Source of the DNA: Sphaerolaimus hirsutus
Lineage: Eukaryota; Nematoda; Chromadorea; Monhysterida; Sphaerolaimidae
DNA length: 64,000 bases
NCBI GenBank assembly: GCA_964036195.1
Contig: OZ038456.1
Coordinates: 16,740,001 to 16,804,000 of the forward strand
Direction: 5' to 3'
Shown here: piece after piece, positions 16,984-63,762 of the stretch
Layout of the letters: the number at the start of each line of letters is the position of its first letter
Position numbering within the stretch: the first letter of the stretch is position 1
Notes under the pieces: model-generated
The model's database searches: none
Told to the model about the DNA's origin: nothing
The model's input: only the letters and a program-made list of their open reading frames with translations
Program-made: the position numbers and the translations under genes

Positions 16984-17772
16984 CGATTTTTAACCTTCCC
17001 GATTGGTAAGCTCTCGATTGGTAAGCCAAAGTATCTCGATGGGTAAGCCAATGTATCTCGATTGGTAAGCCGCATGCAAATTTCATTTTTCATTCGATTG
17101 GTAAGCCAAAGTATATTGGTTTTTAACCCGACTGTCTCGATTGGTAAGCCGCGTACGTACATACTAATACCTCAATGAATTACTGGTGTGTACAAAACAT
17201 GAAATACATCAATGAATTACTGAGGTATGTACATGAGGCAATTATGTCTGGGCACCTTTATCAAATGTGCAAACTGCTACCTAAAAATGAGCAGCACCAA
17301 TAGATATGTAAATGTAAAGTAATTATACACAAATATCATATAAAAATGTAAATATTTATTGTAGTGAAGTGAGCAGATAAATATCTTGATCAAAAAGTAT
17401 GCTTTGCATTGAATAGTACTGTACAAATGTGGTGTAAAATACCAGATGTCATGCAAAGTGTCAAATTTCATGTAAAATGCAGTGAAAATGGCAAACCAAA
17501 GTCATACAGTCACTAATCTAGCTCAATTGAAACATTGTGCTGAAGGTGCTGGTCCAGTGTATCAGCATCACTCTAATATCTTGCCGCGGCATCTATTCAC
17601 GTCTGCACCATACTTATTTATGTATTGGCTTTATTATCGACATACCAGGGGTTAAAAATCGAGACACTTTTTTAAGCCGTGTGTGGCTTTATTATCGATA
17701 CACTTTGGCTTACCCATCGACATACTTTAGCTTACCCATCGAGAGCTTACCAATCGGGAAGGTTAAAAATCG
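16984..17772. mobile_element. Inverted element of CGATTGGTAAGCC repeats
   Basis: Left arm CGATTTTTAACCTTCCCGAT then five to six copies of TCTCGATTGGTAAGCC; the right arm is the inverse, ending GGTTAAAAATCG. The 450-base middle is unrelated AT-rich DNA plus a CAGTCCCAG-family scrap at 17440-17500. Confidence 0.65.
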
Positions 17773-20550: not shown

Positions 20551-21999
20551 ATGGCGGATTTTGGTCCCGCCATTGAAGGGCTGTCGAAATTTGGCCGGCA
20601 TCCGATCTACAGATACGAGTCGCAGCTGCACTCAGGGCATATTTACGAATTCACCGTCAATTGCAGGAAGAAAAATGGAGTAATTTATGCCAGGTAAATA
20701 TGTTTGGGCTTTTATTTTTTGCATTCCATTAGATGTTTTTGATGCATTTCCAAGCAACGAAGATGATAAATAAACATATTTCAATAAAACATAAACAAAT
20801 GCTCAAAAAATTCATAAAAAGTTACATGAGATACTAGCTTGGGGAGTTCCTAAATATGTATACCTAATGTCAATCATTTAATATGGATGAGTGTAATATG
20901 AGAATTCATGTTGTTAAGTGCAATAATTTGTGTAAAAATGTTATGAAATGCTCATGCAGATGCGGCCTGTGCCAGTCGATTTTGGGGCGTAAGTTTACTG
21001 GGCTGCCTCTTGTGAGAATAGAGGATGGCAGATTTGTCAAGATCGACCCTGACCGGCCCACAAATCCACATCGGTGCGCGGATAACCAGCACGACATCGT
21101 CAGCCATGCGGTCAAGCAAAAAAAACGGTTTGTAAATTAATTAATTTGTTGTAAAGTACTAAATGACATATTTTCAAGTTGTTAGTCATTTATAACTGGA
21201 ATTTCCAGTTTACCGGAACTTAACAAGAAGTTAAATTCCGGTAAAGTTCCGGTAAAGTTCAACACAATCAACACACACATTTATCACAGGAGTCACTGTT
21301 GCGCCAGAAGATAAATGACGGGCGTGAGCAACTGCGGCAACGTAAAAGTACTTACGTGAAAATCGATGATAAGCTCACGGAATACAAACGTGAACTGCAG
21401 GGGGTATGCATTGCCTATGGAGCGTGGGACAATGTGCCACTTGGATATGTCAGTTCAAATTTTTTAAACTTATGTTTAATTTTTAGGATACCAATATTGT
21501 CAAAAACTTTTATTTTCAATCCAAAAACCGTGCAGGTGTATGACTACCTGAAACGTTGCTCCTATCTTCTGAAGAACTCTTCAGAGGAGATTCTGCCACC
21601 GCCAGTGCCACAAAATCCAGGTGCCAGTCCCAGACCCTGTAAAGTGCCCTGTAAAATGTCAAATGTCATGCAAAGTGTCAAAAGTAATGTAAAATGCCCT
21701 GCAAAATGGCAAATGTTTTCCATTATGCAGGGCATTTTACAGGACTTTTGCCACTTTGCATGACATTTGACATTTTACAGGACAGTTTACAGGGTCTGGG
21801 ACTGCCCCCAGCTGATATCGATTTGGTGGCAGCGAATCAGCTACTCATGTTGCAGCTGGCACAAGCGCAGCAACAACTGCAACTTTTGCAGCAACCGCAG
21901 CAAAACCAGCAGCAACCGCAGCAGCAGCAGCAGCAGTTGAATTTGACTGACTTATCTGACACTGCACAGAATATTGTTCAGGCGATGCAGTGGATTTAG
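20551..21999 (+). CDS. Unknown protein with Cys/His cluster and poly-Gln tail (5 exons)
   Basis: Exons 20551-20693, 20960-21131, 21290-21403, 21536-21620 and 21812-21999 join in phase to give 233 residues. The N-terminal half reads YEFTVNCRKKNGVIYARCGL followed by a Cys, then a basic strand region and NPHRCAD. That gives a C-x2-C ... H-x-C pattern reminiscent of FLYWCH-type zinc modules, but this is only a resemblance. The middle is a charged helix (KINDGREQLRQRK). The C-terminus is poly-Gln with the end DTAQNIVQAMQWI. A transcription or chromatin role is possible but not shown. The start at 20551 gives MADFGPAIEG; an upstream non-coding exon may end at 20454. The gene lies on the opposite strand within the proposed long intron of CCDC88. 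Confidence 0.7.
21621..21811. mobile_element. Palindromic repeat forming an entire intron
   Basis: Between the exon end at 21620 and the exon start at 21812 the sequence starts GTGC and then CAGTCCCAGACCCTGTAAA, and ends with the reverse complement of that word followed by CCCCCAG. Its inside is made of inverted AAATGTCAAATG-type words. Read straight through, the frame stops at 21763; spliced out, it restores the coding frame. Relatives lie near 751, 17440, 25020 and 34405. No clear target duplication is seen. Confidence 0.65.
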
Positions 22000-24873: not shown

Positions 24874-25645
24874 CTGTAGAGTACGACGGCACCGAGATAT
24901 TTGTGTTGTGTAATTGCAGGTGGCTCGAACTTGAATTGGATCTGGGAAAGGATGAAAACTGTTTTATTTCATCGACTGTGGCTCAGGTTGTTGCATTTAA
25001 ATGGTTTCTACAAAATTGGTGTGTCCCAGACCTTGTAAAAGACCCTGCAAAATATCATGTGTCATGTAAAAGACCCTATAAAGTATCACGCGTATACAAA
25101 TCTTACTTTATCGTATCCAAATCTCATGTCAAATGGTATGATTTCGATACAAAAACAAATTCTTTGGATACGCTAATATAGGATTTGGATACACATGATA
25201 TAATCAGGACATTTTACAACAAATCAAACAACAACCATACAACCATCAAGAAACCAAAGACCCAACTCACAAATATGCAAAAAGTGCACACAACAAGCTG
25301 CCGTCGCATAAATCGGCGTATCTGAGCGTGTCGGCGAAGTGCGCGCACACGTTGGGCGATAAATTTCGTGGACTTATCGACGCCAATCCACCACTGGCGG
25401 TGCAGGTGCTAGTTGACTGAGTGGGGGATTATTTGAAAGTATGGAGTTTACTGATAAACTTTTTGTCTTTGGATGTGTGAAATTTAGAGGCATAGACATT
25501 TATTAATGATTCTTGACGATTCTTGACACGATTACAGCGTCTTTCATGGGCGAGTTTTCCTACATGATATTTTGAGTCGATCTTTGCACCCCAACGACAC
25601 TCGCAAGCCCCGAAAATATAAATAGGATTCTTAAATCCCGCAAAC

Positions 25646-34404: not shown

Positions 34405-34512
34405 CACTGGCATTTCCAGACCCTGTAAAATGTCAAATAGAGTTTTACTGACTTTTGACAATTTGCACGCCATTTTACATTTTACATGCCATTTTGCACT
34501 GTCTGGGACCAG
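34405..34512. mobile_element. CAGTCCCAG-family fragment
   Basis: CCAGACCCTGTAAAATGTCA on the left and CATTTTGCACTGTCTGGGACC on the right; a shortened relative of the intron-forming element at 21621. Confidence 0.55.

Positions 34513-48229: not shown

Positions 48230-63762
<15,533 letters not shown>

Follow-up and report, generated by a model that had tools for sequence, protein, structure and literature searches.

The window, the whole stretch of 64,000 nucleotides of Sphaerolaimus hirsutus DNA analysed here, contains a gene with a poly-Gln last exon, and the inferred intron in front of this exon is occupied by a single inserted element (Table 1). It has GT at 21621-21622 and AG at 21810-21811, starts GTGCCAGTCCC and finishes GGGACTGCCCCCAG. 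The two arms of the palindrome (21620-21713 and 21716-21809), which lie 2 nt apart, are 90% complementary, and the RNA fold of 21601-21831 reaches -150.9 kcal/mol, compared with -61.4 (sd 4.6) for 200 shuffles (z=-19.5). A preliminary description of this DNA had reported a palindromic intron with these GT and AG positions, as well as a phase-1 join, and both agree with our results. When the element and one CAG are removed, the exons join as AAT CCA G / CT GAT ATC in a single frame and the old reading frame is restored exactly; when the element is retained, a stop codon follows, its end at 21763. The intron, as inferred, consists of one inserted element (21621-21808) followed by CAG, one of the two copies of a 3-bp target duplication. 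The boundaries described earlier, with the intron beginning 4 bases before the palindrome and ending 7 bases after it, were correctly placed, but GTGC and CCCC are part of the element, and the closing CAG (21809-21811) is the right-hand copy of the duplication. The donor, GTGCCA, is weak compared with what we take to be the consensus. The remaining introns of the gene appear GT-AG-like by eye. The related copies that had been reported elsewhere in the window were recovered, one at 86% identity and the others as pieces. The window also contains an MRCK-like kinase exon at 62500-62754 (CDC42BPB in the PDB, E=6e-21).

Table 1. Features of the window intron and related sequences in the window
Feature	Position	Strand	Basis
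Exon upstream of the element, ending AAT CCA G	21536..21620	+	Open frame; alignment to the paralogue on C428
Target duplication CAG, left copy	21618..21620	+	Sequence; single CAG at the same place in the empty-site paralogue
Inferred intron GT...AG, element plus right duplication copy	21621..21811	+	Frame restored on removal; empty site
Inserted element, 188-bp near-perfect palindrome, GTGCCAGTCCC...GGGACTGCCCC	21621..21808	+	Arm complementarity; family consensus
Left arm, donor end GTGC	21621..21713	+	Arm complementarity
Right arm, other end GGGG (minus-strand reading)	21716..21808	+	Arm complementarity
Target duplication CAG, right copy, supplying the putative acceptor AG	21809..21811	+	Sequence; empty-site paralogue
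Last exon, poly-Gln, TAG at its end	21812..21999	+	Open frame; paralogue on C428
Related palindromic copy without intact ends, 86% identity	738..910	+	Similarity search in the window; sequence read
Related palindromic piece, shorter	34409..34509	.	Similarity search in the window
Related palindromic piece, shorter	17419..17496	.	Similarity search in the window
Fragment akin to one element end	25023..25070	.	Similarity search in the window

A protein search with the joined exons retrieved a paralogue on contig C428 that aligns through the junction (residues 1-90, 89% identity) and is free of stops. Its DNA reads AATCCAG/CAGATATC, with one CAG and with neither the element nor the intron. Since this paralogue shows the empty site, the evidence for gain of the window intron is direct, although it comes from one comparison. 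At three further loci (L131, L132 and L133) the window gene is represented by its last exon alone, which follows a shared repeat and has its first base precisely at the junction (GGCCCCAG/CTGATATC); the sequence upstream of these exons showed no relation to the element end within 5 mismatches.

The genome searched comprises 348 Mb in 762 contigs, and sequences for an intermediate filament, a GPCR, a Cys-loop receptor and a COX1 with 14 TGA mark it as that of an animal. Introners are recognised by many introns that are alike up to both splice sites, and the donor-end pattern CAGGTGCCAGTCCCAGACCCTGTAAA, with up to two mismatches, had 7,102 matches (3,608 + 3,494), while the reversed-pattern control had 0. 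We analysed 39 similar copies, 30 loci with perfect CAG donor ends and 20 with a perfect donor end not after CAG. The last two samples came from contig C1 alone, and the remaining copies were picked by similarity. Among these 89 copies and the window copy, both ends could be placed in 87, and 82 had clear ends. L016 and L071 are one site, and common flanks were seen in L013/L045, L056/L057 and L074/L075; L071, L045 and L057 were left out of the consensus, and all duplicates were kept in the triplet and codon-model counts. The majority consensus, built from 49 copies of 180-198 bp, has a length of 190 bp and matches its own reverse complement apart from the centre (position 95) and two bases near the donor end, T for G at 2 and C for G at 4, with GTGC at the donor end and GGGG at the opposite one. 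Copy lengths ranged from 141 to 545 in one sample, and both ends were nonetheless conserved. One copy, L020, has GGGG where the others have GTGC and is possibly the ancestral symmetric form.

The flanking triplets of the 82 clear copies were CAG/CAG in 46, CTG/CTG in 17, CTG/CAG in 7, CAG/CTG in 4 and others in 8, among them one CGG/CGG and one CAT/CAT, equal on both sides. Because these triplets are mostly CAG/CAG or CTG/CTG (identical on both sides in 63 of the 82), insertion duplicates CWG, the target duplication of NuwaI transposons. Exact left ends were preceded by CAG in 556 cases and by CTG in 434, out of 1,169 (p=1e-4 for the lean to CAG), and exact right ends were followed by CAG in 693 and CTG in 447 (p=3e-13). 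The lean was only slightly greater on the right (p=0.03), with symmetric GGGG copies counted among the right ends. As a sign of selection, change from CTG to CAG on the right lacked significance (7 versus 4, p=0.55). Median arm identity was 0.892 for the 46 CAG/CAG copies and 0.851 for the 17 CTG/CTG copies, a comparison blurred by mixed copy lengths, and arm identity was rejected as a measure of age for this reason. There was no sign of compensatory change between the arms, an identity of ~0.89 being what 5-6% drift per arm gives.

Insertions in coding sequence were sought by comparing joined peptides with Pfam, one from each of 40 copies and each selected visually for its protein-like appearance; 34 were read GT end first and 6 in reverse, and a match over the junction was counted at E up to 1e-4. 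In this hand-picked set, 14 matches crossed the junction, which is what insertion into coding exons predicts, 3 fell short of it, 2 were weak and 21 peptides had no match. Eight of the 14 have an AG end: L036 (GCV_T), L028 (C2, six residues beyond the junction), L044 (7tm_1), L042 (filament), L015 (VWA, barely within the cut-off), L055 (Oscp1), L065 (Cation_ATPase_C) and L035 (myosin). Five have a non-AG end, namely CTG in L121 (Xan_ur_permease, SLC23), L017 (CG-1 of CAMTA, five residues beyond the junction), L025 (cation efflux) and L029 (attractin), and CGG in L124 (Helicase_C, ATRX-like). In the last one, L037 (adh_short, within the cut-off), the element is reversed (CAG/GGGGC...GACAC/CAG). 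Alignments to PDB sequences ran without a gap through the junction for L124 (human ATRX, 9l06_K, E=2.7e-45), L121 (SLC23A1, 7ytw, E=9.4e-17) and, weakly, L025 (E=0.005); that of L035 had a two-residue gap five residues before the junction, and PDB searches with L017 and L029 gave no match. L011, L030 and L067 were dropped as junction evidence, their Pfam matches not crossing the junction (L011 has homology on one side only), and L059 and L062 were dropped for weak matches. A test based on stops alone in 30 AG-ended copies did not separate spliced from shifted joins (mean 142.8 codons versus 137.2 and 130.1, p=0.34 and 0.12); it is too coarse a test, since more than one frame is open in the flanks.

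To orient 80 copies, we fitted a codon model to their joined flanks (150 bp): 45 had the GT end first, 9 were reversed and 26 were undecided or non-coding (p=7e-7). Compared with homology, the model misread L121 as reversed and L028 as non-coding. On contig C1, 12 of 25 copies in the perfect-CAG-end sample were called coding with the GT end first, as were 5 of 10 CTG copies from the other sample, L121 being a sixth by homology. Over both pattern-based samples this call was made for 19 of 40 copies; by extrapolation, if about half held for all copies, there would be thousands of introns of this kind. The 45:9 bias points to strand-specific removal, and together with the end counts and the divergence of the non-AG copies given below it fits removal from RNA that requires the GT end and favours AG without depending on it.

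Taken together, the element is very probably an introner, a non-autonomous NuwaI-type (PHIS/Harbinger) DNA transposon whose insertion into an exon produces an intron. Insertion takes place at CWG, with these three bases duplicated. The left end would have changed from GGGG to GTGC, the G-to-T change at base 2 giving the 5' splice site GT, and the duplicated CAG to the right of the element would give the 3' AG. Loss of the element with one duplication leaves the frame exactly as it was before insertion. We infer that the spliceosome removes the element from the transcript, with GTGC at the stem foot and the triplet beyond the stem as its sites, and its mobilisation is presumably due to a NuwaI transposase. 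The hairpin presumably hides the inner CT/GTAAA and TTTACAG/ sites, whose use together with the outer donor would cause a frameshift in the usual form of the element (19 extra bases). The earlier suggestion of a transposable element that creates introns by bringing both GT and AG is thus supported in its main part, by the empty-site paralogue, the donor-end matches and the junction homology of the hand-picked peptides. It needs amending as to the acceptor, since what supplies the AG is the duplicated target CAG and not the element, and TG stands at the right end of many copies, where AG had been foreseen.

The preliminary description had also offered a recent insertion that breaks the exon. 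We consider such an insertion, with a dead gene or a deleterious allele as its outcome, very unlikely. It would fit the CTG and CGG copies that sit in conserved exons without an AG at the right place, and, as the window gene has relatives, loss of one copy would be bearable. However, conserved genes with these insertions keep open frames on both sides, the copies are not fresh (4.8% from the consensus in the window and 5-9% in those with junction homology), and the 45:9 orientation would be left unexplained; the empty site, the copy number and the junction homology favour an intron creator. Excision from DNA in body cells, as with the internal eliminated sequences of ciliates, would make splice sites irrelevant, and its precision would rescue the CTG, CGG and reversed (L037) copies too. 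We regard it as highly improbable, given that a coding-strand bias of 45:9 is expected of removal from RNA and not from DNA, and so is the 693:447 lean of right ends to CAG, even if insertion bias may also vary the ends. That the element came to lie inside a pre-existing intron is scarcely credible: some copies do lie in non-coding flanks, and L011 has homology on one side only, but in the window, as in the copies that span a junction, the element takes up the whole length of the intron, and the intron-free paralogue on C428 contradicts an older intron in the window.

The introner reading must also accommodate the copies without AG. Copies with CTG or CGG duplications lie GT end first in conserved exons of ATRX-like, SLC23, CAMTA, cation efflux and attractin genes, and, because of these duplications, the five would need GT...TG or GT...GG introns. 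GT...AG ends are present in the window intron and absent in L017, L025, L029 and L121 (TG), in L124 (GG) and in the reversed L037 (GG...AG). The non-AG copies do not look fresh, because their divergence from the consensus (5.3-6.3% in L017, L029, L025 and L124; L121 is shorter than the others and stands outside this comparison) resembles that of the eight named AG copies (4.8-9.0%). Canonical GT-AG alternatives that keep the frame exist for every non-AG copy, which proves little, because they need protein changes by codons or sites in the flanking exons; in L025 the cost could be 2 codons. Use of non-AG ends could rest on U2 splicing at TG, on a cut defined by the hairpin, as proposed for euglenids and Amoebophrya, or on an altered U2AF, as in Fritillaria (PMC13326754).

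Tentatively, and as a possibility we hold to be rather less than even, we propose that the hairpin, and not an AG, determines where these introns end on the 3' side in this animal. The stem would bury every strong inner site (GTAAA donors and TTTACAG acceptors), and only the GTGC foot and the duplicated triplet would stay open and be cut whether the triplet is CAG, CTG or CGG. The change at base 4 unpairs the stem foot in the predicted fold. If the hairpin does set the 3' end, a perfect palindrome with two altered bases is a portable intron independent of AG in the target; if the TG and GG ends are used, RNA structure can stand in for the AG signal in an animal.

The origin of animal introns is an old open question, and the part of an introner survey used here (Gozashti et al. 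2022, PMC9860276) names two animal groups only, copepods among them, with family sizes between 5 and more than 2,000 copies. Its introners resemble the present element in that a transposable element inserted in an exon becomes an intron, with a target site duplication and terminal inverted repeats, one splice site carried and the other taken from the duplication, and the frame kept. The present family differs from those described there: its donor end alone gives 7,102 matches, of which small samples place about half in exons, it forms a perfect palindrome, and AG is missing at about two fifths of the counted right ends. NuwaI transposons of the PHIS superfamily, as outlined in PMC4482050, duplicate CWG, have ends mostly starting with GGG and are known from animals. 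The present element shares the CWG duplication and an animal host; of its two ends, one starts with GGGG and the other has become GTGC. A literature search of titles and abstract openings found no description of NuwaI-derived or palindromic introners.

Breaches of the GT-AG rule are known from other systems. The non-canonical introners of Amoebophrya also have hairpin-forming inverted repeats, direct repeats across the boundaries and ends that break the rule; as the part of PMC7789003 used here describes them, they belong to a dinoflagellate, lack fixed ends and have sites confirmed by RNA-seq; the sites given here are predictions from sequence. In the nonconventional introns of euglenids, according to the portion of PMC4770533 considered, a hairpin unites the intron ends, a 5' CAG pairs with a 3' CTG, and a MITE origin has been proposed. 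CAG and CTG are found here at +5 to +7 and -10 to -8, and there at +4 to +6 and -8 to -6, so the positions do not agree, and the other introns of the window gene have a GT-AG-like appearance unlike the euglenid type. TG also replaces AG at 3' splice sites of human U2 introns, reported as alternative sites in 36 genes (PMC2374985, as far as cited here), whereas TG would be the sole site in the present copies. This genome holds thousands of dated insertions from the same source, which combine either orientation with either CAG or CTG and so form four natural classes, through which the need for GT and AG in new introns becomes measurable.

The autonomous partner of a NuwaI (PHIS) element is expected to encode a DDE transposase and a Myb/SANT protein, and a partner was sought here through PF13359. 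This profile had 163 matches in the genome; 30 of these loci were fetched, and none had the element ends within 2 mismatches, one end-like site being found at 3. The PF13359 loci were rejected as the partner, being a high-copy family with different ends. The loci L078-L107 form a high-copy DDE_Tnp_4 family with the 5' end GGCCCCACGCACACTAGTTTA, in which the match is ~190 bp longer than the profile and, among the matches listed, an identical set of 4 TGA occurs in most copies. The extra ~190-bp stretch may be an intron.

A second introner-like palindrome, with GTGGCAATCC... ends, was observed on the minus strand at L129:4178-4375 (G000:C1:28875700-28880700). It separates '..DCPQ' from 'DDSSDEDS' in a reading frame that has a DDE_Tnp_4 exon ~2 kb away. 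The donor end of this second family, GTGGCAATCCAAAGCCCTGTAAAGTG, had 2,708 matches (1,352 + 1,356) and 0 in the control. The matches listed include 13 such DDE_Tnp_4 hits, and 10 of the family's 21 perfect donor ends are found at a distance of 1.7-1.9 kb from a hit of this group, so that a transposon seems to have multiplied with a second-family introner inside it. As a separate observation, one contig (L128, G000:C762) is mitochondrial, with 19% GC and a COX1 that contains 14 TGA; nad2- and nad1-like frames come first, on the minus strand, and after them the plus strand carries cox1 and an atp6-like frame, the names other than COX1 being assigned by eye.
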